From Limimonas halophila (GTDB taxonomy: Bacteria > Pseudomonadota > Alphaproteobacteria > Kiloniellales > Rhodovibrionaceae), in contig NZ_FNCE01000013.1 in the NCBI RefSeq assembly GCF_900100655.1, positions 1 through 48,075 of the forward strand: a stretch of 48,075 nucleotides of DNA, given 5' to 3'. Below, in pieces: positions 6,771 to 35,897 of the stretch. Every line of letters begins with the position of its first letter. Within the stretch, counting starts at the first letter, position 1. The position numbers and the translations under genes are program-made. Below the pieces are notes generated by a model. It was not told the DNA's origin and did not search any database. It worked only from the letters and a program-made list of their open reading frames with translations.

Positions 6771-7562
6771 ATGAGCGTTCCCGGCGCCTTCGTGGAGTTG
6801 GCCGAGCGGTTGGCCGACACCGCCCGCGAGCACCTGCGACCGCACCACCGCACCGCCCTCGAGGTCCAGCGCAAGGCCGACGGCACGCCCGTCACCGAGC
6901 CCGAGCAGGCCACGGAGCGCGCGCTGCGCGCGATCATCCACGAGGCCTATCCGGACCACGGGATCGTGGGCGAGGAAGGTGGCGCCGAGCGCATCGACGC
7001 CGAGTACGTGTGGATGCTCGATCCCATCGACGGGACCAAGCAGTTCCTCACGGGCAAGCCCGGCTTTTCCTCGCTGATCGCGCTGCTGCACCAGGGTCAG
7101 CCCGTGCTCGGCATCATCGAGGTGCCGGCGATGCAGGAGCGCTGGCTGGGCGTGCGCGACCGCGGCACGCGCCACACCGACGTCAACGGCACCCGCTTCG
7201 CGCAGACACGGCGCTGCGACTCGCTGGATCAGGCGCGCTTCGCCACCACCGTCCCCACGGGCGACGACGAGGAATCGGCGGACGCCTTCCTGCGCCTCGC
7301 GGAGAGCGTCCAGCTGGCGGTGTCCGGCGGCGACGGCCACAACTACGGCCTGCTCGCCAGCGGCTTCTGCGACATCGTGCTGGACGCCACGATGAGCGCC
7401 TACGACTACGCCGCCCTCGTGCCCATCGTCGCGGAGGCCGGCGGCGCGATCTCCGACTCCAATGGCGAGCCGCTCGGCGGCGAGGGTGAGCGAACGGTCG
7501 TGGCCTCCGGCAGCCCCGCCCTGCACGAGCAGGTGCTGAACGTGCTGGCGGGCGCATCCTGA
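6771..7562 (+). CDS. hisN: Inositol monophosphatase-family protein, probably histidinol-phosphatase
   Basis: A 263-residue, Mg2+-dependent phosphatase of the IMPase/FIG superfamily. The motifs are seen in order: 'VGEEGG' (first metal glutamates), 'WMLDPIDGTKQFLTGKPGF' (the DPIDGT metal loop followed by the F-x-x-G-K-P run typical of HisN), and 'DATMSAYDYAALVPIVAEAG' (third metal aspartate with Y-D). The K-P-x-F and 'ALVPIV' features favour histidinol phosphate over inositol phosphate. However, an inositol-3-phosphate synthase is encoded elsewhere in this window, so inositol monophosphate is a possible second substrate. It is cytoplasmic. The yejABEF operon starts 49 bases downstream. Confidence 0.8.
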   Translation: MSVPGAFVELAERLADTAREHLRPHHRTALEVQRKADGTPVTEPEQATERALRAIIHEAYPDHGIVGEEGGAERIDAEYVWMLDPIDGTKQFLTGKPGFSSLIALLHQGQPVLGIIEVPAMQERWLGVRDRGTRHTDVNGTRFAQTRRCDSLDQARFATTVPTGDDEESADAFLRLAESVQLAVSGGDGHNYGLLASGFCDIVLDATMSAYDYAALVPIVAEAGGAISDSNGEPLGGEGERTVVASGSPALHEQVLNVLAGAS

Positions 7563-7611
7563 GCACCTTTTTCTTTACAATCGCAACCGTTTGGCTTGGG
7601 CTGCGCCGGCC

Positions 7612-13789: not shown

Positions 13790-15349
13790 ATGCGGTCCAT
13801 CAGCCTGCCGTCCCTCAGCCTGCGTTGGCGCGTGGCGCTGGGGTTCACCGTGTTGATCGTGCTGATCTCGGCGGTCAGCGGGTACGTTCGCGTGACCAAG
13901 CAGACGGGCGATCTGGAATCGTCCCTGCGGTCGCGCGCCGAGCGTCTGGCCGCGATCGAGGCGCAAGCCGTGGAGGGGGCCGTCTGGGATCTCAACTACG
14001 AGCGCGCGACCAGCCTGCTTAAGGGACTGAAGGGCGATCCCGCGTTCGAGTACGCGCTGGTGCGCAACAAGGAAGGCGAGGTCGTCGCCGACATTGGCGA
14101 GAAGCCGGCGGACGGCGTGGGCATCATGGCCGCGAACGCGCCGGTGACCCACGGCGAGAAAAAGCTGGGCACCCTGGAACTCGGGCTCACCACCGGTAGC
14201 CTCGCCGCGAAGACGCAGGAGAGCGTGCGCGATGCCGTCATCAGCGGCCTCGTCATGCTGGCCGTCCTGGTCGCGGCGATGGTCTTTTCGCTCAACCGCG
14301 TGCTCAAGCCGGTGGGCGCCATCACCACCGCCATGACCCGCATCGCCGACGGCTCGGAAGAGGTCGACGTGCCCTACACCCAGCGCCGCGACGAGGTGGG
14401 CGCCATGGCGCGCGCCGTCGGCGTTTTCCGCGATAATACCAGCGAAATGGCGCGCATGCGCCGCGAGCAGGAGGAGATGCAGCGGCGCAACGAGCAGGAG
14501 CGCGAGGAATCGCGCCGCAAGCTGGCCGACAGCTTCGAGGAAAAGGTGAAGGGCAATGTCGGCCAGATGACCTCGGCCGCGCAGACCGTCGCCGAGCAGG
14601 CGGGGCGCATGAACGAGGTGGCGGCGAAAAACCGCGAAAAGGTGGAGGGCGCCCTCCAGGGCTCGCGCGAGGCCAGCCAGAGCGTGCAGACCGTGGCCTC
14701 GACGACGGACGAGCTGACCTCCTCCATCCGCGAGATCGCCAACAACGCGCAGCAGTCGCAGCAGGTCTCCGACGACGCCGTGCAGCGCGCCTCCAACACC
14801 CAGTCCACGGTGGAGCAGCTGCAAACCGCGGCGAAGCAGATCGAGGAGGCCGTCACCCTCATCAACGACATCGCCGAGCGCACGAACCTGCTCGCGCTCA
14901 ACGCCACGATCGAGGCGGCGCGCGCCGGCGAGGCCGGCAAGGGCTTCGCCGTCGTGGCCGACGAGGTCAAGTCGCTGGCCAACCAGACCTCCAAGGCCAC
15001 CGAGAGCATCGCCGGCCAGGTCAAGGAGGTGCAGAGCGCCACCGGCTCCGTGGCCGAGCAGATGTCGGCGATCGCCGAGGTCATCAATCAGGTCAACGAG
15101 CACGTCTCCGGCATCTCGGGCGCGGCGGAGCAGCAGGACACGGCGACGCGCGAAATCGCGCGCAACGCCCAGGCCGCCGCGGATTCCGCGCAGTACGTGC
15201 AGAACAACCTCAGCGAGATCCAGGAAGCCGCCGCCACGAACGCCGAGGAAGCGGGCCAGGTGTCCGCGGCGATGAGCGATCTCAACGCGCGCTGCGAGTC
15301 CCTGGACAGCGACGTGGACAACTTCCTGGCCGACATCCGCGCGGCCTGA
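13790..15349 (+). CDS. Methyl-accepting chemotaxis protein with short periplasmic sensor
   Basis: A 519-residue transmembrane chemoreceptor. TM1 is at about residues 14-32, a periplasmic domain of roughly 115 residues follows, then TM2 (148-168), a HAMP domain (about 168-220), and a long signalling coiled coil. The hairpin tip '[20 protein letters not shown]' (starting near residue 370) binds CheA/CheW. The sensor contains '[20 protein letters not shown]', a pattern seen in small single-domain periplasmic sensors. There is no C-terminal pentapeptide for CheR/CheB. The ATG at 13790 follows AAGGGAGCCAGGGGC. Binding protein 1 starts 51 bases after the stop, so the two are probably co-transcribed. 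This suggests the periplasmic protein presents a ligand to this receptor (inference). Confidence 0.93.
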
Positions 15350-15400
15350 TCGCGGACCGCGTGCGTGGGGACCCACCAACGGGAACAGGGGGAACGACAC

Positions 15401-16168
15401 ATGACGTCTGGCCCGACAAAGAGCGTTCGCCGCCTTTTACGCGGGGCGGGCGCCGTGCTGGCGGTCGCTGCGCTGCTCGGCACCGGGGCGCCGGTCCAGG
15501 CCAAGGATCTCAAGATCCTCAGCGCCCACCTCCCGCCCTATTCCATGAAGGGTGAGGACAAGCAGGGCTTCGTCGCCGAGGTGGCGCAGGAAATCGCCGA
15601 GCGCGTCGGCAACCCGACGAAGCTGCACTACGCGTCCTGGTCGCGCGTCTACAAGACCATCCAGAACAAGCCCAACCGCCTGTTGGCGCCAATCGCGCGC
15701 ACGCCCCAGCGTGAGGACAAGCTGAGCTGGGTGGTGCCGGTTTTCCCGGACCGCATGGTGCTGCTGACTTATGGGGATGATGCCGAGAAGCTCAGCCTCC
15801 AGGAAGCGGCGAAGCAAGGCATCGTGGGCGTGCAGCAGGACTCCCTGATGCACGAGCTGGCGAAGAAGCGCGGCATCAAGTCCAAGAACCTGGACGTTTC
15901 CGGCGATCTCACCTCGATCGCCCGCAAGTTCGCCGCGGGACGCATCGACGCTTGGCTGTCCCTGGAATCCCTGGCCGTGTTCTCGATGAAGGAACAGGGC
16001 CTCGACACCGATCCGATGAAGGTGGGCGAGACGATCAGCGAGTTCACCGTCTACATCGGCGGGTCGCCGGGGCTGTCGGACAAGGTGAAGCAACGCTGGC
16101 GCGACGCCTTCGAGGCCATGAAGAAGGACGGCACCTACGAGGAGATCATGGCCAAGTACGGCGCCTAA
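15401..16168 (+). CDS. Family 3 periplasmic solute-binding protein, paralogue 1 of 4
   Basis: A 255-residue secreted protein. The signal peptide is about residues 1-34 (cleavage after 'PVQA') and the mature protein begins 'KDLKILSAHLPPYS'. It has the fold markers of SBP family 3 (PF00497): 'GFVAEVAQEIAERVG', 'LLAPIARTPQREDKLSWVVP' (equivalent to the family's ITPxR ligand-binding segment), 'IVGVQQDSLMHELAKKRG' and the C-terminal 'GTYEEIMAKYG'. The family binds amino acids or similar small polar ligands. No permease or ATPase gene lies next to any of the four copies, so a sensory rather than a transport role is plausible. It follows the chemoreceptor by 51 bases with a GGGGGAA site. An upstream start at 15365 would spoil the signal peptide. 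Confidence 0.88.
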   Translation: MTSGPTKSVRRLLRGAGAVLAVAALLGTGAPVQAKDLKILSAHLPPYSMKGEDKQGFVAEVAQEIAERVGNPTKLHYASWSRVYKTIQNKPNRLLAPIARTPQREDKLSWVVPVFPDRMVLLTYGDDAEKLSLQEAAKQGIVGVQQDSLMHELAKKRGIKSKNLDVSGDLTSIARKFAAGRIDAWLSLESLAVFSMKEQGLDTDPMKVGETISEFTVYIGGSPGLSDKVKQRWRDAFEAMKKDGTYEEIMAKYGA

Positions 16169-16617
16169 CGCGCGCTGCGTGCGGCAGAGCTTCGCGCCCC
16201 GCCGTGACCGGCCTGTGAAAAACACGTCCTGAATGGTCGCGGTCGTCCCCGGGGCGGCGGGAACTCCCCGTCGTCACGGGGCGACTTTGTGTGTCCACAC
16301 TTCGTCGGACGCGCGCAAATTGTTTTGGGGGCCGACCCTCCCCGAGACCGGGGTCGACACTGTCGTTTTTCGAGCTTTTTCACGCAGTTGGGGCCATGCG
16401 ATCATGCGTGATCGACATTTTGGGGGCGCCGACCCGTCCGGTATTAAGCCAGAATTTAAATTCCAAATATAACAATCGGGTGAGGACTCGCGATCGCCGT
16501 GTGAGTGGCGATTGCGCGCGCCATTCAGCCGGCCGCGTCGGGTGCGGGTGTCGGCGCAAGGGTCATCGCCCCATCGCCCGTGGCTGGCTGAAGGAGCGAA
16601 ACAGGAGGCCGATTGCC
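16169..16617 (+). promoter_or_regulatory. 449-base leader of paralogue 2 with hairpin, direct repeat and dyads
   Basis: This gap has no convincing gene. From left to right: a perfect hairpin CCCCGT-cgtc-ACGGGG (16266-16281), possibly the end of the upstream transcript; a direct repeat TTTTGGGGG...CCGACCC at 16323-16338 and 16418-16435; a perfect dyad CGATCA-tgcg-TGATCG (16399-16414) between the two repeats; an AT-rich island (16441-16476) ending in TATAACAAT, which recurs at 17512 before paralogue 3 and may be a -10 element; and a nearly perfect dyad GCGATCGCC/GGCGATTGC (16490-16515). The arrangement suggests a regulated promoter. The binding protein cannot be named from sequence. Confidence 0.5.
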
Positions 16618-17385
16618 ATGTATGCTGCTATTCGACGTGTTCGTGCGGTTGCAGGTGCCCGGCGTGCGCTTCTCGCGTTGGCGCTCGCGGTGGGGATGGG
16701 CGCAGCGCACGCGCATGCCGGCGATGTGAAAATCCTCAGCGCCGACATTCCGCCGTATTCCATCAAGGACGGCGAGACGCAGGGGTTCGTCGCCGAGGTC
16801 GCGAAGGAGATCGCGCGACGCGTCGGCCAATCCCCCGAACTGAATTATTCCTCGTGGTCGCGCGTCTACAAGGCGATCCAGACGCAGCCCAACCGCCTTC
16901 TCGCGCCCATCGCCCGCACGCCCCAGCGCGAGGAAAAGCTGACGTGGGTGGTGCCGGTCTATCCCGACCGCATGGTCGTGATGACGTACGGCGAGGACGC
17001 GGAAAAGCTCTCGCTGAAGGAGGCGGCCGAGAAGGGCATGGTCGGCGTGCAGCAGGACTCCCTGATGCACGAGCTGGCGAAGAAGCGCGGCATCGACGCC
17101 TCGAACCTGGACATCTCCGGGGACACGGCGACGCCGGCGCGCAAGCTGGCCGCGGGCCGGATCGACGCGTGGCTGGTCCTTGAGTCGATGGCGATGATGA
17201 CGATGAAGCAGGAAGGCATCGATCCCGGTCCCGCCAAGATCGGTGAGGTGATCAAGGAATTCACCATCTACATCGGCGGCTCGCCGGACTTGCCCGACCA
17301 GGTGGTCAAGCGGTGGCGCGACGCCTTCGAGGCCATGAAGAAGGACGGCACCTACGCGGAAATCATGTCGATGTACGGCGTGTGA
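16618..17385 (+). CDS. Family 3 periplasmic solute-binding protein, paralogue 2 of 4
   Basis: A 255-residue secreted protein with signal peptide at about residues 1-34 ('...AAHAHA'); the mature start is 'GDVKILSADIPPYSIKDGET'. It shares with paralogue 1 the segments 'RTPQRE', 'VGVQQDSLMHELAKKRGI', 'IYIGGSP' and 'RWRDAFEAMKKDGTY', so these two are close relatives. Differences lie around the second lobe ('MMTMKQEGIDPGPAKIGEV'), where ligand contacts may vary. The ATG at 16618 follows ACAGGAGG. The frame extends upstream to 16291 but without a signal sequence, so the later start is right. It has its own long leader and is followed by a strong hairpin at 17397, so it is probably a single-gene transcript. 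Confidence 0.88.
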   Translation: MYAAIRRVRAVAGARRALLALALAVGMGAAHAHAGDVKILSADIPPYSIKDGETQGFVAEVAKEIARRVGQSPELNYSSWSRVYKAIQTQPNRLLAPIARTPQREEKLTWVVPVYPDRMVVMTYGEDAEKLSLKEAAEKGMVGVQQDSLMHELAKKRGIDASNLDISGDTATPARKLAAGRIDAWLVLESMAMMTMKQEGIDPGPAKIGEVIKEFTIYIGGSPDLPDQVVKRWRDAFEAMKKDGTYAEIMSMYGV

Positions 17386-17396
17386 TCGATCGATGC

Positions 17397-17431
17397 CGGC
17401 GTGGCGGGCCGGTGTGCGGCCCGCCACGCCG
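17397..17431 (+). terminator. Strong hairpin downstream of paralogue 2
   Basis: A perfect 14-base-pair stem (17397-17410 with 17418-17431) with a 7-base loop begins 11 bases after the stop codon of paralogue 2. It is very GC-rich. It is followed by TGCCCTGC rather than a run of T, so it may act as an mRNA-stabilising 3' end or an atypical terminator rather than a classic intrinsic terminator. Confidence 0.55.
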
Positions 17432-17816
17432 TGCCCTGCGGAGCCGGGCAACGGTCAACCCCGCGTCGTTGGGACGGGCATCGCCTCGGAATGCGAAGCA
17501 CTATAACAATTTTTAAAAGCGGCATGTTTGATCAAGCTCATGCCCCCGGTCATCTTGGCAGAGCGTGCTGTAAAATGCTCCAAGATATAGAATATCTCAA
17601 AGAAAGTATGTGAGAACACGCAATCCAAACGATTGCATGAACGTGACCATCGGCGGCCTGACAGTTCGAGATTAAGTTGTATTTTACTGATGTCGTTTAT
17701 ATCTTCGTGCATCATGCCGCGACCGCGTCCGTGAAGCGCGGTCCGGAATCGGCCGGTCTGCGAAGCGCGTCCACGGCACGGTAGGCGGCGGGCGCGCTTG
17801 GCGAGGAGCGACGACC
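17432..17816 (+). promoter_or_regulatory. AT-rich regulatory leader of paralogue 3
   Basis: A markedly AT-rich stretch in a GC-rich genome. It contains TATAACAAT (17512-17520), the palindrome TTGATCAA (17528-17535) inside GCATG...CATGC, the perfect dyad AGATAT-aga-ATATCT (17583-17597), and then a module shared with paralogue 4. That module is CTCAAAG at 17596, the perfect dyad GCAATC-CAAAC-GATTGC (17620-17636), GTGACC, and ATTAAGTTGTATTTTACTG from 17671. The distance from the CAATC start to ATTAA is 50 bases, identical in paralogue 4. A GAGGAGCGA ribosome site precedes the ATG at 17817. No gene is seen. Confidence 0.6.
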
Positions 17817-18593
17817 ATGACGGCATCCATACACGGCCTGCCGCCGTGGCCAAGCCGTGCGGCGCGGGCGCTCACCCTGGCGGCGACGCTCGCGGTCCTG
17901 GCGGTTGCGGGCGCGGCGAAGGCGGACGATCTCAAGGTCCTCAGCGCGCATCTGCCGCCGTATTCCATGGATGTGGAAGACGGCAAGCGCGGCTTCGTCG
18001 CCGAGGTCGCCAAGGAGATCGCCCGGCGCGTGGGCGCTCCCACGGAGCTGCACTACGCCCCTTGGGCGCGCGTTTACCGGGCCGTGCGCGAGCGCGAAAA
18101 CCGTCTGCTGGCGCCCATCGCGCGCACACCTCAGCGTGAGGACGAGCTGAGCTGGGTCGTGCCCGTCTTCCCCGACCGCATGGTGGTCTTCACCCACGGC
18201 GAGGACGCCGAACCGCTGACCTTGGCGGAGGCGCGCGAGCAGGACCTCATCGGGGTGCAGCGTGGTTCCCTGATGCACGAGCTGTTGAAAAAACGCGGCG
18301 TCGAGGCCGACAAGCTCCAGGTTCAGGCACGCCAGGCCGAAACCGCGCGCCTGCTGGCGCGGGACCGCGTGGATGCCTGGGTGTCGCTGGAATCCCTGGC
18401 CGTCTTCGCCATGAAGGAAGCGGGCCTGGACCCGGAGAAGCTGGTCTATGGCGAAACGATCGACTCCTACACGATCTACATCGGCGGCTCGCCGGGGCTG
18501 CCCGAGACGGTCAAGCAGCGCTGGCGCGAGGCCTTCGAGGCCATGAAGCGCGACGGGACCTACCAGGAGATCATGGCGAAGTACGGCGCGTGA
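17817..18593 (+). CDS. Family 3 periplasmic solute-binding protein, paralogue 3 of 4
   Basis: A 258-residue secreted protein with signal peptide at about residues 1-36 ('...GAAKA') and mature start 'DDLKVLSAHLPPYSMDVEDG'. It shares 'YSM', 'DGKRGFVAE', 'PTELHYAP', 'RTPQREDELSWVVPVFPDRM' and 'EDAEPLTLAEA' with paralogue 4, so copies 3 and 4 are the closest pair. Even the leader and the bases around the start codon (GACCATGACGGCATC) match. The 'GVQRGSLMHELLKKRGVEAD' segment differs from copy 4, where the helix carries 'NSAMHQML'; this region lines the ligand cleft in family 3, so the ligands may differ. Copies 1-2 and 3-4 look like two generations of duplication. Confidence 0.88.
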   Translation: MTASIHGLPPWPSRAARALTLAATLAVLAVAGAAKADDLKVLSAHLPPYSMDVEDGKRGFVAEVAKEIARRVGAPTELHYAPWARVYRAVRERENRLLAPIARTPQREDELSWVVPVFPDRMVVFTHGEDAEPLTLAEAREQDLIGVQRGSLMHELLKKRGVEADKLQVQARQAETARLLARDRVDAWVSLESLAVFAMKEAGLDPEKLVYGETIDSYTIYIGGSPGLPETVKQRWREAFEAMKRDGTYQEIMAKYGA

Positions 18594-18944
18594 ACGGGCG
18601 ACGCGGCGGCGGTTGGCGTCGTCCGCGTGCGGGGTGACGGTGTTCGTGCGCGCGTGGGCCTTTCAAGCGCGTTTTGCGTGGGTCGCCGCAAAGCGTCCAA
18701 CTTGCTTTATTTAATCGCTCAAAGCAATTTTATGGAATGATCAATCCAAAAGATTGCGCAGGGGTGACCGGTGACGGGATGACGCGGCGCAATTAAACTG
18801 TATTTTATTGGTCTTGGAGTGATCCCGGTGCCGCCCGCCGGGATGTCGGTTGCCGCGCGGCGGCATGGATCGCCGCACGGAACCGGGGTGAGAGGCGTGC
18901 GATCGACTGGCGGCGCCGCCACGGGCGGTGCAGGAGCGAGGACC
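18594..18944 (+). promoter_or_regulatory. Regulatory leader of paralogue 4
   Basis: The gap starts with a weak hairpin (GACGC...GCGTC, near 18604) after the stop of paralogue 3. It then has an AT-rich island from about 18700 to 18815 that repeats the paralogue 3 module: CTCAAAG (18718), the perfect dyad CAATC-CAAAA-GATTG (18742-18756), GTGACC, and ATTAAACTGTATTTTATTG (18792-18810). Distances between elements match those upstream of paralogue 3 to within one base. The ribosome site is CAGGAGCGAGG before the ATG at 18945. No gene is seen. Confidence 0.6.
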
Positions 18945-19721
18945 ATGACGGCATCGTTGCGCGGTCAGCCGCCGCGTTTCGTCCGCGCCGCCGGGGCGGT
19001 CACGATCGCGGCCATGCTCGCGGTCCTGCCGGGTGACGGCGCCGCGGACGCGAGCGATCTCAAGATCCTCAGCGCGCATCTGCCGCCGTATTCCATGGAC
19101 ACGCAAGACGGCAAGCGCGGCTTCGTGGCGGAGATTGCCAAGGAGATCGCGCGGCGGGTGGGCAACCCCACGGAGCTGCACTACGCGCCCTTCGCGCGCG
19201 TCTACAAGGCGGTGCGGGAGCGCGAGAAGCGCTTGCTGGCGCCCATCGCGCGCACGCCCAAGCGCGAGGACGAGCTGAGCTGGGTGGTGCCGGTCTTCCC
19301 GGATCGCATGGTCGTGGTGACCTACGGCGAGGACGCCGAGCCCCTGACCCTCGCGGAGGCGCTGGACGCCGGCCTGGTCGGGGTGCAGCGCAACTCCGCG
19401 ATGCACCAGATGCTGCAAGCGCGCGGTGTGGACGAGTCGAAGCTGATCGTTTCGGCGGATCAGCGCGAGAGCGCGCGCCTCCTGAGCCTCGGCCGCATCG
19501 ACGCCTGGCTGTCGATGGAGTCCTTCGCCATGTACGCCATGCAGGAGGCCGGCCACGACCCGGAGAAGCTCGTCTACGGCGAAACGCTGAAGGAATTGAC
19601 GATCTACATCGGCGGCTCGCCGGGGCTCTCCGAGGCGGTCAAGGAACGCTGGCGCGAGGCCTTCCGCGCCATGAAGAACGACGGCACCTACCAGCGCATC
19701 ATGGGCCATTACGGCAGCTGA
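18945..19721 (+). CDS. Family 3 periplasmic solute-binding protein, paralogue 4 of 4
   Basis: A 258-residue secreted protein. The signal peptide is about residues 1-36 ('...GAADA') and the mature start is 'SDLKILSAHLPPYSMDTQDG'. It carries the same blocks as the other three copies ('LLAPIARTPKREDELSWVVP', 'IYIGGSPGLSEAVKERWREA', 'MKNDGTYQRIM'). The lysine in 'TPKRE' and the changed 'GVQRNSAMHQMLQARGVDES' helix set it apart, and the C-terminus ends 'GHYGS' rather than 'AKYGA'. The ATG at 18945 is used; upstream frame to 18819 lacks a signal sequence. An imperfect hairpin (19725-19745) follows the stop. The next gene, an ATP-grasp ligase, starts 89 bases on. Confidence 0.88.
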   Translation: MTASLRGQPPRFVRAAGAVTIAAMLAVLPGDGAADASDLKILSAHLPPYSMDTQDGKRGFVAEIAKEIARRVGNPTELHYAPFARVYKAVREREKRLLAPIARTPKREDELSWVVPVFPDRMVVVTYGEDAEPLTLAEALDAGLVGVQRNSAMHQMLQARGVDESKLIVSADQRESARLLSLGRIDAWLSMESFAMYAMQEAGHDPEKLVYGETLKELTIYIGGSPGLSEAVKERWREAFRAMKNDGTYQRIMGHYGS

Positions 19722-19810
19722 CCCGGCCCGTCCGAGCGGACGGCCCCTTCCGAACGGGGAGGTGCGGGGCGGCGGCGTGCCCGGCATCCTGTGTCGCCGG
19801 AGGTGACGCC

Positions 19811-20833
19811 ATGGCGCTCGATCTCGCGGTGCTGCTCGGCGATCCGCGGCTGCCCTACAGCTACACCGTCGACGGCCGCTTCAGCGACGCGGACCACGCC
19901 GCCGTGGCGCGCTTGAAAGCCGCCCTGGACGCGCTGGACGGCGTCGCCTGCCGCTATCTGGAAGATCACGGGCGCCTGATCGCGGATCTCACCGCGGCGG
20001 CGCCGGATCTGGTTCTCAACTTCTGCAACACGGGCCTGGGCAACGATCCCGCGCGCCAGCTGCACGTGCCAGCGCTGCTGGAGGCCCTGGGCCATCCCTA
20101 CGTCGGCGCCGACGCCCGCGCTCTGGCGGTGTGCCACGACAAGGCGCTGGTGATGGCGGCGGCGGCCGCGCTCGGCATCCCCGTCCCGGCGACGCGGCTG
20201 GTCGACGGGACCGATCCGCCCGCCGACCCCGCGCCGTCGTATCCGGCGATCGTGAAGCCCAACGACGGCGACGGCAGCATCGGCATCACCGCGGGCGCGG
20301 TGGTGCGCACGTCCGACGCCGCGCGCGCCTACCTCGCGGACATGACCGCGAGCACCGGGCGGCGCTGGGCCGTGGTGCAGGCGTGGCTGCCGGGGGCGGA
20401 GTACAGCGTCGCCATGGTGGGCAACCCGGAACCGGGCTTTGCCGAGCTGCCGCCGCTGCAGCTGGATTTCTCGCGCCTGCCGCCGGGTGCGCCGCCCATC
20501 CTGCCGCTGGACGGCAAGATCGACCCGGCCTCGCCCTACTACGGCGGCGTGCGCCTGCTGCCCGCCGATCTCGACGCGGCCGGCCAACGCCAGTTGCGCG
20601 ATCAGTGCGCGCGTGTCTTCGCGCGCCTGGGGTTGCGCGACTACGCCCGCTTCGACTGGCGCGCCGATGCCGCGGGTGTGCGCCACCTGATCGACGTCAA
20701 CGCGCATCCGATGTGGGGCGCCGACGGCATGATGGCCACGATGGCCGGCTTCGCCGGGGACAGCTACGCGGGCTACCTGCGCCGCGTGATCGCCGCCGGC
20801 ACCGCGCGCAACGGGCTCGCCGTGCCGGGCTGA
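19811..20833 (+). CDS. ATP-grasp protein related to D-alanine--D-alanine ligase
   Basis: A 340-residue cytoplasmic protein. The central and C-terminal ATP-grasp lobes are clear: 'YVGADARALAVCHDKAL' (typical ligase helix), 'YPAIVKPNDGDGSIGI' (the P-loop-like K-P strand and Gly-rich loop), 'VQAWLPGAEYSVAMVG' and the metal-binding end 'LIDVNAHPMWGADGMMATMA'. In true D-Ala ligases the last motif is E-V-N-T-x-P-G, and an N-terminal G-G-x-S-x-E motif binds the first D-Ala; neither is canonical here. It is therefore more likely a diverged ATP-grasp ligase with another amino or carboxylic acid substrate than the essential cell-wall enzyme. It follows the binding-protein array with no clear operon link. 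Confidence 0.75.
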   Translation: MALDLAVLLGDPRLPYSYTVDGRFSDADHAAVARLKAALDALDGVACRYLEDHGRLIADLTAAAPDLVLNFCNTGLGNDPARQLHVPALLEALGHPYVGADARALAVCHDKALVMAAAAALGIPVPATRLVDGTDPPADPAPSYPAIVKPNDGDGSIGITAGAVVRTSDAARAYLADMTASTGRRWAVVQAWLPGAEYSVAMVGNPEPGFAELPPLQLDFSRLPPGAPPILPLDGKIDPASPYYGGVRLLPADLDAAGQRQLRDQCARVFARLGLRDYARFDWRADAAGVRHLIDVNAHPMWGADGMMATMAGFAGDSYAGYLRRVIAAGTARNGLAVPG

Positions 20834-28266: not shown

Positions 28267-30126
28267 TCAGGACGCCGCTTCCGCCGGTTCCGTCTCCCCG
28301 CTTTCCTCGCCGGACCCGGCCGCGTGTTTGTTCGCCAGGTCCTCGATCTGCTCCAGCAGCTCGCCGTAGCGGTGCGAGCGGCGTTCGGTCGTGTTCAGGT
28401 TGGTGAAGAGCTGGATCAGGCGCGTGAAGGTTTCGCGCGCGTCGGCCTTGCTGTCGAAGCTGTAGCCGCGGGTGAGCAGCTTGTGCAGCAGCTCGAAGAT
28501 CTCGCGCTGGCGGTCGAGCGGCACCGAGACGTCCACGGGATCGAAGGCGTCCTGCTGCAGGTAGACGAAGTCCAGCAGCCGCGCCTTCTGGTAGGTGACG
28601 TAGTCGCCGAGCGTGATGCCCTCCTCGCCCGTCACCTCCATCATCTGGCGCACGTCCTCGCCCTCGCCGAGCAGCTTGGCCATGCGCTGCACGCGCTCGG
28701 TCCAGCCCGTGTTCATGTTCGCGTCGTACCAGGCGCGCAGTTGGTCGCGGTAGCGCGTCCACGAGATCAGCGGGTCGATGGCGGGGTAGTAGCGCTTGTA
28801 GGCGCGGTCGGACGACAGCCCGAGGAAGGCCTTCACCGAGGCCAGCGTGGACTGCGTCACCGGCTCCTCGAAGTTGCCGCCCGCGGGCGAGACCGTGCCC
28901 ATGAGCGTCAGGCTGCCGTGCTCGCCGTGTGGCGTCTCCAGCACGCCCGCGCGCTCGTAGACCGCCTTGATCGTGGAATCGAGGTAGGCGGGGAAAGCCT
29001 CCTCGCCGGGGATCTCCTCCAGCCGGCCCGAGGTTTCGCGCATCGCCTGCGCCCAGCGCGAGGTGGAGTCCGCGATCACCAGCACGTCCAGGCCCATCTG
29101 GCGGTAGTACTCGCCGATGGTCAGGCCCGTGTAGATCGAGCTTTCGCGCGCCGCCACCGGCATCGAGGAGGTGTTGCAGACGATCACCGTGCGGTCCATC
29201 AGCGACGCGCCCGTGCGCGGGTCCGTCAGCTCGGGCAGCTCGGTGAGGGTTTCCACCACCTCGCCCGCGCGCTCGCCGCAGGCCACGATCACCACCACAT
29301 CCACGTCGGCGTAGCGGGCGATCAGGTTCTGCAGGACCGTCTTGCCGGCGCCGAAGGGGCCGGGGATGCAGGCCGTGCCGCCCTTGGCGACGGGGAAGAA
29401 GGTGTCGATCAGCCGGATCGTCGTCGCCAGCGGCGTTTCCGGGTAGACGCGCTTCACGCGCCGGCGCTTGAAGAGCTGCTGCGGCAGCGGCGTGCGCACC
29501 GGCCAGGACTGCGACATGCACACCGTGCGCTGACCCTCGCCCGTGTCCAGGCCGGCGATGGGCTCGTCCACGGTGAACGCGCCTTCCTCGATCCAGGTGA
29601 CCTCGGCCTCGCCGTCCAGGTCGAAGGGCGCGAAGACGCGGTGGGTGATCGTGCCCTCGCGCACCGAGCCCAGATGGTCGCCCGGCCCGACGTGCTGGCC
29701 GCGGCTGACCGTGGCCTGGAAGGTCCAGCGCCGCTTGGGCTCCAGCGCCGGCATGTCCACCCCGCGCGGCAGGAAGGTGCCGTGGGTGTCCGCCAGCCCC
29801 TGAAGCGGGCGCTGCAGGCCGTCGAAGACGCGCCCGAGCAGGCCGGGGCCGAGCGAGACGGACAGCATCTCGCCCGTCTGCGTGACGGGGTCGCCCACGC
29901 TCACCCCGCGCGTGCTTTCGTAGATCTGGGCGTCGGCGCGGTTGCCGTTGACGCGCAGGATCTCGCCCTTGAGGGCCGCCTCGCCGTCGGCCTCCTGCCG
30001 GCGCGGGTGGACGTGGATGACCTCGTTCTTGCGCATGGGCGCCGCCGCTTCGCCCTCGGGCTGTTCGAGGGTGACGAGCACGTCCTGCACGGCGACGACG
30101 CGGGGACGGGGCTGCTCCTCGGCCAT
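28267..30126 (-). CDS. atpA: V-type ATPase catalytic subunit A
   Basis: A 619-residue catalytic subunit of the V1 head. The P-loop G-P-F-G-A-G-K-T is at 256-263. The extra 'non-homologous region' of V/A-type A subunits is at about 110-200, which separates it from F-type beta subunits. '[14 protein letters not shown]', '[12 protein letters not shown]' and 'EEAFPAYL' are standard catalytic-subunit segments. It hydrolyses or makes ATP at the interface with subunit B. The ATG at 30126 has GGAAGAGG about ten bases upstream; a GTG at 30135, overlapping the previous stop, is an alternative. It is the last gene of the B-D-I-K-E-DUF2764-A operon. Confidence 0.95.
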
Positions 30127-30131
30127 GCGGA

Positions 30132-30827
30132 TCACGCCTCTTCCGTTTGCAACACCGGGCCGTGGGCGGCGAGCGCGCGGTCCACCAGGGCCTCGAAGCG
30201 CTGGGCGGCGGCCTCGCCGTCGTAGCGCATCCAGCGGTCCATGAGGTCCCAGCGCAGCACGTAGAGCGCCACGGCCGCGAAATCGAACCAGTGCCCCTGC
30301 GCCAGCGCGTCCAGATCGCGCCAGGCACGCGTCAGCAGCAGCTTTTCCAGCGCCAGGGAGTCCCCGGCCTGGAGGTGCTCGTCGGCATCCAGCACCCAGG
30401 CCGCGCTGTGGCGCAGGCCGAACGCGGGGTCGTCCCAGTGGCGGCGGATGCGGTCCGCCGCGCGGTGGTAGCCCAGCATCGCCGGGTCGTCGGGCGGCCC
30501 CAGGCCGTCCCGCCGGCGGCGCAGCGCCGCCACGAGGGCGCGCGATTCCAGCCGCCGCCGCACCGCCTCGCGCAGCGTGGAGTCCGCGATGGTCTCCGCG
30601 ACGCGGCGGGCGCGCGCCCCCTGCGTCCGGTCGTCGGCGCCGCCCTGGAGCACGGCCCAGCGCAGCACCCCCTCGGCTTCTTGCAGCGTGGCGGCGTCGC
30701 CGGGCTCGAGCAGGCGCAGCCGCCGGTCGAGCTGGCGCCGCGTGATGGGCCGCTCGCGCGCGGTGAAGGGCGTGCCCAGGTGGGGCAGGCTGCTGATCAG
30801 GTCGACGTAGCGGGTGGCCGCCGGCAT
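30132..30827 (-). CDS. DUF2764-type V-ATPase subunit (subunit C-like)
   Basis: A 231-residue helical protein encoded between subunits E and A. The N-terminus 'RYVDLISSLPHLG' resembles the opening of DUF2764 proteins ('YY.LIA.LPDL'), which occupy the same place in chlamydial and Bacteroidetes V-ATPase operons. The rest is arginine-rich helix with 'DLDALAQGHWFDFAAVALYV' near the end. Position and rough pattern suggest it replaces the C subunit that links stator and rotor; no canonical C or F gene is present. It starts immediately after the E stop and overlaps the alternative GTG of A by four bases, so it is translationally coupled. Confidence 0.65.
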   Translation of the reverse strand: MPAATRYVDLISSLPHLGTPFTARERPITRRQLDRRLRLLEPGDAATLQEAEGVLRWAVLQGGADDRTQGARARRVAETIADSTLREAVRRRLESRALVAALRRRRDGLGPPDDPAMLGYHRAADRIRRHWDDPAFGLRHSAAWVLDADEHLQAGDSLALEKLLLTRAWRDLDALAQGHWFDFAAVALYVLRWDLMDRWMRYDGEAAAQRFEALVDRALAAHGPVLQTEEA

Positions 30828-31535
30828 TCAGCCCACCAGCCCGTCCAGCAGCGCGCGGAAGCGCGGTTGCAGGTGCTCCAGGATCAGCTCGGCCATGGCC
30901 TGCTCGCTCAGGTCGAACTCGATCTCGTGGTCGTGCGCCACCACACGCAGCCCGGCCTGCTTGTCGCGCGCGACGCGGAAGGTCAGCCCCTCGCGCAGGC
31001 GGTCGCCCGTGATCGCCAGCACCAGCCGCATCAGCTCGTCCTGGCGCAGGGCCTCGGGGTTCTTGCGCAGCTCGTCCAGGCCCGGCGCCTCGCGCGGCAG
31101 CACGATCTCCACCTGCTCCGGGTCCGCCTCGGCCAGGGCCTCGCCCGCGCGCCCGCCGACCGCGAGGATGAGGCGCTTGACGACCTCCGCTTCGCGGATT
31201 TCCTGGGAGACGAGGCGGCGCACGTCGTCCTGGAAGCGGTTGAACATCTGCTGGCGCAGGGCGAGCACGGTGTCGCGCGCGGCCTGATGCAGGGCGTCGT
31301 GGGCCGCGCGTTTCATGCTGTCGATCTCGTGCTGGGCCTCGTCCTTGCGGCGCTGCGCCTCGCGCTCGGCCTCGTCGAGGATGCGGCGCTTCTCGCGCTT
31401 GGCCTCGTCGATCAGGCGCTGGGCCTCGCTGCGGCCCTGTTCCACGCCTTCCTCGCGCAGCTGGTCGATGAGCTGCTGCACGCCCGTGGTTTCGCGGCCG
31501 TCGCCGGGATCCGTGCCGGTGTCGTCGCCCTGCAT
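30828..31535 (-). CDS. atpE: V-type ATPase subunit E (peripheral stalk)
   Basis: A 235-residue protein. The N-terminal two-fifths is a charged coiled coil ('AQRLIDEAKREKRRILDEAE', about residues 38-95) that forms the peripheral stalk. The C-terminal part ('EQVEIVLP', 'GLRVVAHDHEIEFDLSEQAM') has the E-subunit globular fold that contacts V1. The ATG at 31535 follows GAGGGAGG; longer frames upstream overlap subunit K. No separate G/H partner gene is visible, as in other operons of this type, where the second stalk helix is not encoded nearby. Confidence 0.85.
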   Translation of the reverse strand: MQGDDTGTDPGDGRETTGVQQLIDQLREEGVEQGRSEAQRLIDEAKREKRRILDEAEREAQRRKDEAQHEIDSMKRAAHDALHQAARDTVLALRQQMFNRFQDDVRRLVSQEIREAEVVKRLILAVGGRAGEALAEADPEQVEIVLPREAPGLDELRKNPEALRQDELMRLVLAITGDRLREGLTFRVARDKQAGLRVVAHDHEIEFDLSEQAMAELILEHLQPRFRALLDGLVG

Positions 31536-31552
31536 CGCGGCCTCCCTCTCGC

Positions 31553-32002
31553 TCAGCCCGCTGGCAGGCTGGCGCTCAGCACCAGCGCGAAGACGAAGGC
31601 GAACACGGCGAAGCCCTCGACGATCGCCGCCGGGGCGAGCGAGAGCCCGAAGACCTCGGGCTTTTCCTTGGCCGTGTTGATCGCCGAGGCGCAGCACTGC
31701 CCCTGCCGGATGCCGCTGAGCAGCAGCGCCACCCCCGCCAGGATGCCGATGGCGAACAGCCCGCCGCCGGTTTCGACGCTCACGGGCCGCTGAAGGGTCA
31801 GCATGACGACGATCCCGTAGATGACCTGCGAGGAGGGCAGGGCGGACATGCCCACCAGCCGGCCGTGCCCCGTCTCGGTGTCCAGCATCGCGCCGATCGC
31901 GGCCTGGCCCGCCGTGGCGCAGCCGATGATGCTTCCGATCGCGCCCAGGGCCGTGGGGCCGTACAGCCCGCCCCAGCCCAGAATTTGCAGCAGCTCGTTC
32001 AA
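31553..32002 (-). CDS. atpK: V-type ATPase membrane rotor subunit K, sodium-type ligands
   Basis: A 149-residue proteolipid with four membrane helices from two fused hairpins. The ion-binding residues line up with the Enterococcus NtpK sodium site: L55 and S58-Q59 in 'ALPSSQVIYG', Q100 in 'GIRQGQ', and the key carboxylate E129 in 'AIVEGFAVF'. The hydroxyl and two glutamines besides the glutamate are the recognised mark of Na+ binding. The ring passes ions through the membrane against subunit I. It starts with TTG overlapping the stop of subunit I (TTGA). No ATG lies nearby that would keep TM1 whole. Confidence 0.88.
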   Translation of the reverse strand: MNELLQILGWGGLYGPTALGAIGSIIGCATAGQAAIGAMLDTETGHGRLVGMSALPSSQVIYGIVVMLTLQRPVSVETGGGLFAIGILAGVALLLSGIRQGQCCASAINTAKEKPEVFGLSLAPAAIVEGFAVFAFVFALVLSASLPAG

Positions 32003-33807
32003 ACCCGGTGCTCCGTTCGCTCCAGCGGCGTGTAGGGGTAGCCCTCGCCGCTCAGACTCCAGCCGTAGAACTCGATGTAGTCCAGGCGCAGGCCGTGCAC
32101 GACGCCGCTCACCACGGCCAGCACGAAGGTCAGCCCGTGCCCCGCGACGAGCACCAGCCCCGCCAGCAGCACGCCCAGGCCGCTCACCGAGGTGCGCACG
32201 TCGGCGGCGATGTCGTTGAAGGCGGCCGCCAGCAGCGCCGTCGCCAGCCCGAGGGCGAAGAGGCGCAGGTAGCTCAGCACGTCGCCGAACAGCTTGGTCA
32301 CGCTCGCCACGCCCAGCAGGCCGTCGAGCGCGCGCAGCAGGTGGTCCACGGGCCGGCGCACGGGGCGGTCGCTCTGGAAGACGATCACGGTCAGCAGGCC
32401 CAGCCCCACGACGCCCAGCGCCGCCAACGCGCCCGGGCGGCTGCCGGCGTCCCAGGCAAGCCACGCGGCGAAGCCCCCGAGCGTGGCCGCGACCCAGCCC
32501 AGGCGCCCGATCGCCATGCGCCGCGGCCAGTGCGCCGCCGCCCAGGCGGCGTTGCCGAGCGCGAGGTGCAGCACGCCGATGAGCACGGCCAGTTTCATCG
32601 CCGCCGTGTAGTCGGTGAGGTCCACGAGGTTGAGCGTGCCGGCGAGGCTCCCGGCCGGGGGCGTGACGCCGAAGTAGCTCCCGGTCAGCACGCCCACGCC
32701 CACCGAGGCGACGCCCAGCGCCGCCGTCAGCCGCCGCATGCGCACGCCCACCGCGCCGCGCCGCCACAATCCCAGCGGCAGCGCCGCCGTCAGCAGGACG
32801 ATGGCGCCGTAGCCCGCGTCGGAGAGGATGATGGCGAAGAAGAGCGCGAAGGAGGCCAGCAGCACGCCCGAGGGGTCCCAGTCGCGTGCGGGCGGGACGT
32901 GGTAGAAGTGCGCCAGATCCTCGCCCGGCTGCGCCGCCGGCGCGTTGGCCAGCAGCGTCGGCGGCTGGTCCTGCGGCCCCGGCCGCTCGATGCGCACCGC
33001 CATGCCCTGCGCCGTGACGCGGCGGCGGAGCTCGCCCGCCCGGTGCAGCGGCACCCAGGCCTGAAGGGCGAACAGTCCCGTCTCGTCGTGGGTGGTGGCG
33101 AGCGTGCGCGCCAGCGCGGCGGCGTCGGCCGCGCGGGCGAGGCCCCGGCGGATGGTGTCGATGTGGCGGGTGAGGGCGATGCGCTCGACCTCCAGCCCGT
33201 CCAGCTCGCTGTCGATCGCCGCCAGCTCGCGCCGCAGCGCGCGCGTGCCCGTGCCGTTGGTGCGCACCGGCGCGACGGGCAGCATGTCCGCCGGCGGCGT
33301 CTCGCGCGTCACCACCACGATGTGGCGCGCGCCCTCGGAGCGCGCGGCCTCAACCCACGCGTAGGGGATGCGCGCGAGCGTGTCGGCGTGGCGGTTGGGG
33401 ACGGCGTAGAACCAGAGCTGCGCGCCGCCCAGCGTCGCGTCGTCGCCCGGCAGGTCGAAGTCGCCCCAGGGCGCCAGGGCGTCCAGCTGCGCCTGGATCT
33501 CCTCGCGCTGGTCCAGCAGGTCGCGGCGGCGCTGCTTGGTCGCCAGCACTTGGCGCACGATCTCGCCCAGGTCGGTGTCCGGCGTTTCCGCGGCCTGGTG
33601 GCGCCGGTAGGGCGCGTCGCGCAGGAAGCGCAGAGCGCGCTGGGCGTCCTGCTCGCTGGGCTGGCCGTCCGTGGCCGCCGTCTCGTCGCCGGGCGGGTTG
33701 AGCGGCACGACGTGGAGGCAGCCCAGGTCCTGAAGCCCCCGGACCAGCCCGCGCTTGGCGCTCGCGGGGCCGCACAGCGTCACCTTGCGCATGGGCACGA
33801 TGCTCAC
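31999..33807 (-). CDS. atpI: V-type ATPase membrane stator subunit I
   Basis: A 602-residue subunit (equivalent to eukaryotic a). The cytoplasmic N-terminal half begins 'MRKVTLCGP' and has coiled-coil segments. From about residue 315 there are roughly seven membrane helices, with 'GVTPPAGSLAGTLNLVD' between early ones and 'FGDVLSYLRLFALGLATALL', the family's most conserved helix containing the arginine (in 'YLRLFALG') that faces the ion-binding glutamate of K. The GTG at 33807 overlaps the D stop (GTGA); an ATG at 33792 is possible. Ends 'IEFYGWSLSGEGYPYTPL', matching the family terminus. Confidence 0.93.
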   Translation of the reverse strand: MSIVPMRKVTLCGPASAKRGLVRGLQDLGCLHVVPLNPPGDETAATDGQPSEQDAQRALRFLRDAPYRRHQAAETPDTDLGEIVRQVLATKQRRRDLLDQREEIQAQLDALAPWGDFDLPGDDATLGGAQLWFYAVPNRHADTLARIPYAWVEAARSEGARHIVVVTRETPPADMLPVAPVRTNGTGTRALRRELAAIDSELDGLEVERIALTRHIDTIRRGLARAADAAALARTLATTHDETGLFALQAWVPLHRAGELRRRVTAQGMAVRIERPGPQDQPPTLLANAPAAQPGEDLAHFYHVPPARDWDPSGVLLASFALFFAIILSDAGYGAIVLLTAALPLGLWRRGAVGVRMRRLTAALGVASVGVGVLTGSYFGVTPPAGSLAGTLNLVDLTDYTAAMKLAVLIGVLHLALGNAAWAAAHWPRRMAIGRLGWVAATLGGFAAWLAWDAGSRPGALAALGVVGLGLLTVIVFQSDRPVRRPVDHLLRALDGLLGVASVTKLFGDVLSYLRLFALGLATALLAAAFNDIAADVRTSVSGLGVLLAGLVLVAGHGLTFVLAVVSGVVHGLRLDYIEFYGWSLSGEGYPYTPLERTEHRV

Positions 33808-34406
33808 GACGCCCGCTCCGCCCGTTTCCGCTTGGCGATCTTGGCCCGCACGACGCCCGCGCGCTCGGCGTCGCCCAGGGCGATCTGGATGCGCTTGATC
33901 TGCTCCTTGGTGCGCGGGATGAGCACCTTGTCGAAGAGGTTCACCCGCTGCGTCACCGTCTTCAGGCCCGCTTCCAGCCGCGCGAGGCGTTCCTCGGCGA
34001 TCTTCTCTGCAACGCGTTCGCGCAGCTGGGTTTTCAGCAGCTCGATCACGCGGTCCACCCAGTGCGGGCGCACCAGATAGCCTGTCGATGCCACGTCGAA
34101 GCGGACGTCGCCCAGTACCGGCACGGTGACGCCGACGATGTTGCGGGAATTCACCTCGACGTCGGCGATCGTGACCAGATCTTCCACGGCGACCTGGGTG
34201 TCGGCCAGCATGGGCAGGGTGTCGGCGACGCGCTGGCGGGTGGCGGCGAGGCGCTCGCGGATGGTGTCCAGATCGCGCTTGGCGCGGCGGCGCTCCACCA
34301 GCAGCTGCTTGCGCTTCATGTCCAGCGAGGGCAGGAAGCGCTCGTAGGTGGCGAGGTTGCGCTTCTTGCGCGCCAGCTCCGCCTTATTGAGCGGCGTCCG
34401 CGACAC
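33804..34406 (-). CDS. atpD: V-type ATPase subunit D (central rotor shaft)
   Basis: A 200-residue coiled-coil protein that turns inside the A3B3 head. The N-terminal helix 'LNKAELARKKRNLATYERFL' and the C-terminal helix 'LFDKVLIPRTKEQIKRIQIA' are the conserved ends of D subunits. The short region between them carries 'VEVNSRNIVGVTVPVL'. The GTG at 34406 lies inside the end of B, a 23-base overlap that fits translational coupling. No subunit F gene, the usual partner of D, is visible, in line with the reduced operon type. Confidence 0.9.
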   Translation of the reverse strand: MSRTPLNKAELARKKRNLATYERFLPSLDMKRKQLLVERRRAKRDLDTIRERLAATRQRVADTLPMLADTQVAVEDLVTIADVEVNSRNIVGVTVPVLGDVRFDVASTGYLVRPHWVDRVIELLKTQLRERVAEKIAEERLARLEAGLKTVTQRVNLFDKVLIPRTKEQIKRIQIALGDAERAGVVRAKIAKRKRAERAS

Positions 34407-35793
34407 GGGTTCCCTCGCGCTCGGCTGCTTCGCCCGCGCCCGTTTCGGTTGGGTAGTAGCGGTCGATGAGCTGCTGCTTCATGAACAGCTGCTCGGGCCG
34501 GAAGCATTCCGCAAGCGTTTGCCAGCACAGGTCCAGCGCGGCTTCCAGCGTCATGTCCACGTCCAGGTCCATGAAGCGCTCGCGGAACAGCCGGCCGAAG
34601 GTGAGCGCCTGCTCGTCGTGCTCCGACAGCTCGAAGGCCATGGCCTGCTTCTGCTCCGCCTCCTTGGAATCGGCGTAGAGGCGGACCATGACGTTCATGA
34701 TGTCCTTGTGATCCTCGCGCGTGGTCTTGCTGGCGACGTGCTGCTTGAGGCGCGAGAGCGAGCCGAAGGGATCGATCATGCCCTCGCGCAGGTAGAACTG
34801 GCCTTCCGTGATGTAGCCGGTGTTGTCGGGGACGGGGTGGGTGACATCGTCGCCCGGCATCGTCGTCGCCGAGAGGATGGTCAGCGAGCCGCCGCCGGCG
34901 AAGTTGCACGCCTTTTCATAGCGCTGGGCGAGCTGGGTGTAGAGGTCGCCGGTGTAGCCGCGGTTGGCCGGCACCTGCTCCATGGCGATGCCGACCTCCT
35001 TCAGCGCGTCGGCGAAGGCCGTCATGTCCGAGAGCAGGACGAGCACGCGCTTGTTGCCCTCGACGGCGAAGCGCTCCGCCACCGCCAGCGCCATGTCGGG
35101 GACGAGCAGGCGCTCCACGATGGGGTCGGAGGCGAAGTTCACGAACATCGCCGTGCGCGCGAACACCCCGGCGTCCTCGAAGGCGCGGCGGAAGTGGTGG
35201 TAGTCGTCGTAGATCAGGCCCAGCCCGCCGAAGACGACCACGTCCGCGTCCGCCTGGATGCCGATGCGCCCGAGCAGCTGATTGTAGGGTTCCCCCGCCA
35301 CCGAGAAGATCGGGATCTTCTGGCTTTCCACCAGGGTGTTGAAGACGTCGATCATGGGCACGTTGGTGCGGATCATGCGCGCGCCCAGCTCGCGTTCCAC
35401 GGGGTTCACCGTGGGCGAGCCGATCTCGACCTCGCGGTCGGTGGTCAGCGCCGGGCCGTTGTCGATCAGCTCCCCGGTGCCGGCGAAGATGCGGCCCAGC
35501 ACGTTTTCCGAGCAGATCGCGCGCGGGCCGTGGCCCAGGAAGCGCACCTTCGTGCGCGTGGAAATGCCCTTGGTGCCCGCGAAAACCTGAAGGGAAACGC
35601 GCTCGCCGTCGATCTTGAGCACCTGGGCGAGCGATTCCGTGCCCGCGCCGTCGTCGGCGCTGGCGATCGCGGCCAGATCGCCCAGACACGCCGGCGGCTC
35701 CGCCGTGTCGCTGCCCGCCGGCGGGACGTGGACCTTCAGCAGGTCGCCGACGATTTCGAGCACGCGCCCGTAACGCACGGGAATCGCGGGCAT
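34384..35793 (-). CDS. atpB: V-type ATPase regulatory subunit B
   Basis: A 469-residue non-catalytic subunit of the V1 head. It has the shared fold of A but no P-loop lysine; the equivalent segment is 'FSVAGEPYNQLLGRIG'. 'SDMTAFADALKEVGIAMEQV' and 'ANRGYTGDLYTQLAQRYEKA' are strongly conserved B-subunit blocks, and 'SLSRLKQH' is near the C-terminal helical domain. The ATG at 35793 has a perfect AGGAGG eight bases upstream, so it is well expressed; a GTG at 35802 overlaps that site and is rejected. It is the first gene of the operon, and 104 bases separate it from the cyclophilin-like gene. Confidence 0.95.
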   Translation of the reverse strand: MPAIPVRYGRVLEIVGDLLKVHVPPAGSDTAEPPACLGDLAAIASADDGAGTESLAQVLKIDGERVSLQVFAGTKGISTRTKVRFLGHGPRAICSENVLGRIFAGTGELIDNGPALTTDREVEIGSPTVNPVERELGARMIRTNVPMIDVFNTLVESQKIPIFSVAGEPYNQLLGRIGIQADADVVVFGGLGLIYDDYHHFRRAFEDAGVFARTAMFVNFASDPIVERLLVPDMALAVAERFAVEGNKRVLVLLSDMTAFADALKEVGIAMEQVPANRGYTGDLYTQLAQRYEKACNFAGGGSLTILSATTMPGDDVTHPVPDNTGYITEGQFYLREGMIDPFGSLSRLKQHVASKTTREDHKDIMNVMVRLYADSKEAEQKQAMAFELSEHDEQALTFGRLFRERFMDLDVDMTLEAALDLCWQTLAECFRPEQLFMKQQLIDRYYPTETGAGEAAEREGTRVADAAQ

Positions 35794-35897
35794 GGCCGCC
35801 ACCTCCTCGGGGCGCTCACGCTTCGATGTGGCGAATCATCACACTGCACCCGCGCCGCGGGCAATGACGCAGATCATGCCGCGTCCGGCGGCGGTCG

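Follow-up and report, generated by a model that had tools for sequence, protein, structure and literature searches.

A duplicated promoter-like block with a candidate operator upstream of two tandem solute-binding protein genes in Limimonas halophila

Class I activators of transcription have their sites upstream of the -35 element. The recognition site of LysR regulators, which carries a T-N11-A motif, is often found around -65 in the account given in PMC8407307. Among binding proteins, PF00497 (SBP_bac_3) is treated in PMC9602780 as a well-populated family with amino acids as predicted ligands, and the same source describes a mechanism in which amino-acid-loaded binding proteins present their ligands to a receptor. 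Here we analyze a locus of Limimonas halophila (NZ_FNCE01000013.1; own genome 3.04 Mb) in which four PF00497 genes lie in tandem, head to tail, and two of them, SBP3 and SBP4, share a conserved block in their leaders. The window, i.e., the whole stretch of DNA that was analyzed, is 48,075 nt long. Its features are collected in Table 1.

Within the row, SBP4 is closest to SBP3 in protein sequence (73% identity), followed by SBP1 (62%) and SBP2 (58%); at the DNA level, the closest pairs are SBP3-SBP4 (77%) and SBP1-SBP2 (72%). All four proteins match NCBIfam models only far below the cut-offs, and thus no ligand is assigned to SBP1-4. Among solved structures, the binding-protein query (A1) matches 14 distinct sequences, the best being an ancestral amino-acid-binding protein, a match that likewise assigns no ligand. 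The row lies between a chemoreceptor gene and the gene for an ATP-grasp protein. An oligopeptide-type transporter is encoded at a greater distance upstream, and no amino-acid-type ABC permease or ATPase was found beside the SBP genes among the frames scanned. Elsewhere in the window, an archaeal/vacuolar-type ATP synthase cluster (two ATP-synt_ab subunits; C, D, and I subunits) occupies 28270-35802 on the minus strand. The window also contains genes for a PfkB-type kinase and myo-inositol-1-phosphate synthase (36871-39487, minus strand) and for an inositol monophosphatase (6771-7562, plus strand), which possibly serve inositol-based solute synthesis, although this is a guess.

At E 1e-3, Pfam shows no ligand-binding domain in the chemoreceptor, a lack that would agree with sensing by way of the binding protein. 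In one relative of the same class (L037), the gene for a binding protein of 40% identity lies directly 3' of a chemoreceptor gene, as SBP1 does here, and the two chemoreceptors are 36% identical over 467 aligned positions. This pairing of chemoreceptor and binding-protein genes suggests, for the present locus, that the SBPs may present ligands to the chemoreceptor.

Table 1. Positions of the genes and leader elements at the SBP1-SBP4 locus (window numbering).
Feature	Position	Strand	Basis or remark
Methyl-accepting chemotaxis protein (chemoreceptor; HAMP + MCPsignal)	13790..15349	+	Pfam; adjoins SBP1
SBP1, PF00497 solute-binding protein	15401..16168	+	Pfam; 51 bp 3' of chemoreceptor gene
SBP2, PF00497 solute-binding protein	16618..17385	+	Pfam; 449-bp leader
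GC-rich hairpin, 15-bp stem, without T run	17397..17431	+	RNA fold; directly 3' of SBP2
Conserved control block before SBP3	17591..17693	+	alignment of the two leaders
CTCAAAG, SBP3 leader	17596..17602	+	25 bases before dyad
SBP3 dyad CAATCCAAACGATTG = CAATC-CAAAC-GATTG	17621..17635	+	6-bp arms counting flanking G/C
GTGACC, SBP3 leader	17643..17648	+	dyad start +22
-35-like CTGACA, SBP3 leader	17658..17663	+	promoter scan
TGAC, SBP3 leader	starts 17659	+	dyad start +38; absent from the list of the first-pass annotation
ATTAA in putative promoter spacer, SBP3 leader	17671..17675	+	dyad start +50
-10-like TATTTT, SBP3 leader	17680..17685	+	promoter scan
SBP3, PF00497 solute-binding protein	17817..18593	+	Pfam
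Conserved control block before SBP4	18713..18814	+	alignment of the two leaders
CTCAAAG, SBP4 leader	18718..18724	+	24 bases before dyad
34-bp imperfect palindrome, 14/17 pairs, centred on TGATCA	18724..18757	+	SBP4 leader only; short dyad = right arm
SBP4 dyad CAATCCAAAAGATTG = CAATC-CAAAA-GATTG	18742..18756	+	
GTGACC, SBP4 leader	18764..18769	+	dyad start +22
-35-like ATGACG, SBP4 leader	18779..18784	+	weaker match, spacing as SBP3; below scan threshold
TGAC, SBP4 leader	starts 18780	+	dyad start +38; absent from the list of the first-pass annotation
ATTAA in putative promoter spacer, SBP4 leader	18792..18796	+	dyad start +50
-10-like TATTTT, SBP4 leader	18801..18806	+	read from sequence; scan silent
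SBP4, PF00497 solute-binding protein	18945..19721	+	Pfam
Dyad element CAATCCAAAnGATTG, candidate operator		+	SBP3 and SBP4 leaders

The control region common to the SBP3 and SBP4 leaders spans roughly 100 bases. From the dyad onward, the two leaders follow one ungapped register: CAATCCAAA(A/C)GATTGC, then GTGACC at +22 from the dyad start, TGAC at +38, ATTAA at +50, and TGTATTTTA, which starts at +57 in both. About 30 further bases 5' of the dyad, CTCAAAG included, align with a single one-base gap, and the alignment of both blocks has 69 identical columns of 111. The first-pass annotation had listed CTCAAAG, the dyad, GTGACC, and ATTAA for both leaders, and all four are indeed there; the distance of exactly 50 bases that it gave from the dyad to ATTAA is correct for both when the element starts are compared, with 35 bases separating one element from the other. 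A perfect palindrome with 6-bp arms, AGATAT-AGA-ATATCT (17583-17597), is located just 5' of the SBP3 dyad, where it overlaps CTCAAAG; the SBP4 leader does not contain it.

Within the block, TGAC-N17-TATTTT occupies the same place in both leaders and reads as a putative sigma-70-type promoter, a match that the first-pass annotation had not named. A promoter scan of 16100-19800 reported a single site, the CTGACA-16-TATTTT of the SBP3 leader (9/12; mean 0.4 in shuffles). The SBP4 counterpart, ATGACG-16-TATTTT, agrees with the consensus, TTGACA and TATAAT hexamers 16-18 bp apart, at 8 of 12 positions, below the threshold of the scan. Both blocks sit in AT-rich valleys, with GC contents of 0.41, 0.42, and 0.44 in 100-base bins versus 0.706 for the window. 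With a transcription start assumed about 7 bp 3' of the -10 sequence, the centre of the dyad would be near -64, an upstream activator position. RNA folding, without shuffle control, predicts hairpins 3' of SBP2, SBP3, and SBP4, as well as within the longer interval that follows SBP1, a pattern compatible with separate transcription units, one per gene. Rfam at gathering scores gave no riboswitch, thermometer, or other family match in 15300-19900.

The likeness of the two leaders was compared with chance and with the flanks. Their best ungapped local score is 26, whereas 300 dinucleotide shuffles of the SBP4 leader gave a mean of 11.6 and a maximum of 18; identities reach 47 in the best 70-base stretch, versus a mean of 35.0 and a maximum of 40 in 100 shuffles. 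In the fixed register, 30-base windows contain 15-21 identities across the block and 4-9 upstream, where the one-base gap shifts the register. On the 3' side (+75 on) there are 8-14 identities per 30 bases, mostly above the 7.7 expected by chance, and so some likeness persists. Thus, homologous genes are preceded by homologous blocks that are better kept than their flanks, as in a duplicated promoter/operator. The shared register is the strong part of this evidence; the dyad as such is weak. The homology of the blocks also has a simple cause, tandem gene duplication, since SBP3 and SBP4 are tandem duplicates at the protein identity given above.

Further copies were sought in the own genome. 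Exact CAATC-N5-GATTG occurs at 4 places, with about 0.5 expected from composition. Two of these are the SBP3 and SBP4 leaders, and the other two (L001 and L002) overlap long open frames: the L001 dyad coincides with the extreme end of one frame and is also contained in a longer one whose third-position GC is coding-like, and the L002 dyad is inside two overlapping long frames. With as many as three mismatches allowed, 56 rows matched the dyad pattern, 30 of them forward and 26 reverse, with some places counted on both strands; the reversed control matched 20. This 2.8-fold excess may come from dinucleotide use alone, or the genome may contain further, less exact sites for one and the same protein. 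Individually read among the 54 non-leader rows were the five with 2 mismatches, together with those of L001 and L002. One sequence two mismatches from the pattern, CAAGCCAAACGGTTG (7584-7598, minus strand), is found at the start of an oligopeptide-binding protein gene; it was rejected as the same arrangement because it is too close to that gene, and it is probably due to chance. The AT box with up to three mismatches gave 28 rows versus 33 for the control, and when all 56 dyad-like rows were set against all 28 AT-box rows, no pair besides the leaders was found on one strand at a distance of +30 to +80.

A profile of the block retrieved only the two leader copies from the own genome, in a search that starts with a loose first pass. 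In the whole window with filters off, it gave 14 rows, of which only the two leaders were full-length; the third row, at 8.9 bits, covers the region of the SBP4 dyad on the opposite strand. Across 20 own-genome loci searched with filters off, 12 of which are stretches covering the genome's 13 other binding-protein matches, the best score was only 6.7 bits (E 0.32). Within the tandem row, the 51-bp leader of SBP1 leaves no room for the module, and the leader of SBP2 has no module match by either the block profile or ungapped comparison. Compared without gaps, it scores at best 15 with the SBP3 leader, a value attained in 3 of 200 shuffles, and 12 with the SBP4 leader, a value attained in 99 of 200. 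The score-15 stretch sits just after the SBP1 stop codon and was rejected as the module.

No further copy of the module was therefore found in other promoters of the own genome. With two block copies and no third dyad plus AT box, the arrangement is a local pair, not a visible regulon. The first-pass annotation had proposed a genome scan for the dyad plus the AT box at fixed distance and had named a lack of further copies as a refutation; to that extent, the result speaks against a regulon of the module. Among 56 of the 186 frames in the window that were scanned, some of them overlapping or spurious, no DNA-binding regulator family was found, although the 1e-8 limit used in part of the scans could hide a short domain. 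A literature search for the dyad in six spellings returned no paper.

Outside the own genome, relatives of SBP3 are scarce. Three genomes of the family were compared, the own included. The best matches to SBP3 outside the own genome, in a set of 38 relatives (own included, E 1e-3), are about 30% identical. The own genome alone matches among 61 genomes of the order (E 1e-40); 385 genomes of the class (E 1e-45) yielded one non-own match, at 40% identity, and 398 genomes of the phylum (E 1e-38) yielded none. A search of 17 genomes of that class relative's family (E 1e-30) returned the same relative only. These sets overlap, and the class and phylum searches scored at most 6 candidates per genome. 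In all of them (38 relatives, 61 order, 385 class, 398 phylum, and 17 other-family genomes, at the differing E limits), no orthologous leader comparable to those of SBP3 and SBP4 was found. In the class relative, about 60 bp separate the chemoreceptor and binding-protein genes, so that there is no room for the module. Protein searches of genome contigs, from which records near the window may be left out, gave no match, and 33 plasmid records are all below 60% identity (25-32% for the ten listed). At the DNA level, CAATCCAAANGATTG-N7-GTGACC with up to two mismatches occurs at 4 foreign places in 4 of the 385 class genomes, compared with 0 for the reversed control and about 4 estimated from uniform composition. 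In each of these look-alikes the likeness stops short of the AT box, and every one of them overlaps long open frames; they were thus rejected as copies of the module and are read as chance.

The first-pass annotation had read the shared elements as a regulator dyad with its promoter, kept after gene duplication. The promoter half of this claim finds support in the fixed spacing, the clustered identity, and the promoter-like TGAC-N17-TATTTT, and a promoter kept after duplication is the most likely reading. The regulator half is plausible but only partly supported: no further copies were found, and dyads are common in shuffles. We place at about 0.6 the probability that an ancestral promoter with an upstream binding element was duplicated together with the gene and kept by selection, judging from sequence comparison. 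On this view, a gene and its promoter region were duplicated in tandem to give SBP3 and SBP4, and selection retained that region in both copies. Transcription of each gene probably begins at a sigma-70-type promoter of its own, NTGAC(A/G)-N16-TATTTT, within the block. CAATCCAAAnGATTGC, which ends about 22 bp 5' of the -35-like hexamer, would most likely bind a dimeric activator; GTGACC and the spacer ATTAA may be additional sites touched by the regulator or by RNA polymerase; and both paralogs would be expected to respond to the same signal.

Plain shared descent could also account for the block, which would then be a core promoter kept for RNA polymerase, with the dyad an incidental remnant and no regulator involved. 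We regard this as unlikely. At fourfold-degenerate sites, SBP3 and SBP4 are still identical at 82 of 120 positions (68%, versus 44% expected from composition); the pair is therefore not saturated, part of the block identity is plain descent, and the 62-67% identity of the block does not clearly exceed the level that descent without selection might have left. Shuffling the two blocks (500 shuffles) yields a perfect 5-bp dyad with a spacer of 3-8 in 40% and 44% of cases, and CAATC-N5-GATTG with one mismatch allowed has at least two matches in 20 of 100 window shuffles, both real matches being exact. The lack of a third dyad with AT box in the own genome also agrees with simple descent. However, a 16-base run around the dyad is identical at 15 of 16 positions, and it is located 5' of the -35 sequence, where a core promoter needs nothing. 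The conserved columns are, moreover, clustered: the 70-column core has 19 transitions between identical and non-identical columns versus 30.9 in permutations (P ~0.001), and all 111 columns have 40 versus 52 expected (P ~0.01), although neither the longest identical run (P ~0.4) nor the sum of squared runs (P 0.05-0.07) is clearly unusual. The case for selection is thus made by the clustering of columns together with the poor flanks, in a comparison of two sequences, the SBP3 and SBP4 leaders.

The element that is bound may be larger than the short dyad or of another kind, such as the 34-bp palindrome of the SBP4 leader or an asymmetric site, CAATCCAAA, a rather improbable alternative on present evidence. 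When the 110-base block was shuffled 1000 times, none of the shuffles equalled the 14 of 17 pairs of the palindrome, and 0.4% did so in 1000 shuffles of the whole leader, but only 2-6 of 17 pairs form at the corresponding place in the SBP3 leader, so that the palindrome is not common to both. An asymmetric site would agree with the conservation of the dyad spacer, CAAA(A/C), at 4 of 5 positions, nearly that of the arms (10 of 10); with the spacer kept to this degree, a comparison of two sequences cannot establish that selection acts on the symmetry. Gene conversion between the leaders, in place of selection, might have made the blocks alike, because tandem paralogs can convert and identity varies along the SBP3 and SBP4 genes, from 0.62 to 0.92 per 60 bases. 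A recent tract would, however, be continuous and near-identical, whereas here short identical runs alternate with diverged ones, and we consider conversion very improbable.

Returning to a duplicated promoter with an upstream binding element, a bolder and improbable extension is that a dedicated, previously undescribed local regulator reads CAATC-N5-GATTG and drives only SBP3 and SBP4 of the chemoreceptor-linked set. If so, the cell would alter what its receptor senses by switching binding proteins. The analysis precisely locates two probable promoters and a candidate operator in a genome that has few relatives among those compared, and the SBP3 and SBP4 leaders are a natural pair for testing which upstream bases selection keeps after a duplication. 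The locus also points to a chemoreceptor/binding-protein gene pair common to one distant member of the class. Otherwise, the finding is ordinary gene biology of a new genome, and the general picture is unchanged.

Compared with tandem PF00497 (SBP_bac_3) paralog systems, the locus is alike in having four PF00497 proteins in a row, but it differs in its neighbours, which are a chemoreceptor and an ATP-grasp protein, with no amino-acid-type ABC permease or ATPase among the frames scanned. Relative to the LysR box T-N11-A, positions 2 and 14 of CAATC-N5-GATTG are A and T, not T and A, and thus the dyad does not have the LysR signature. What the SBP3 and SBP4 leaders have in common with promoters of LysR-type and class I activators is the overall arrangement: a short dyad with its centre about 64 bp before the inferred start, 5' of a putative sigma-70-type promoter.
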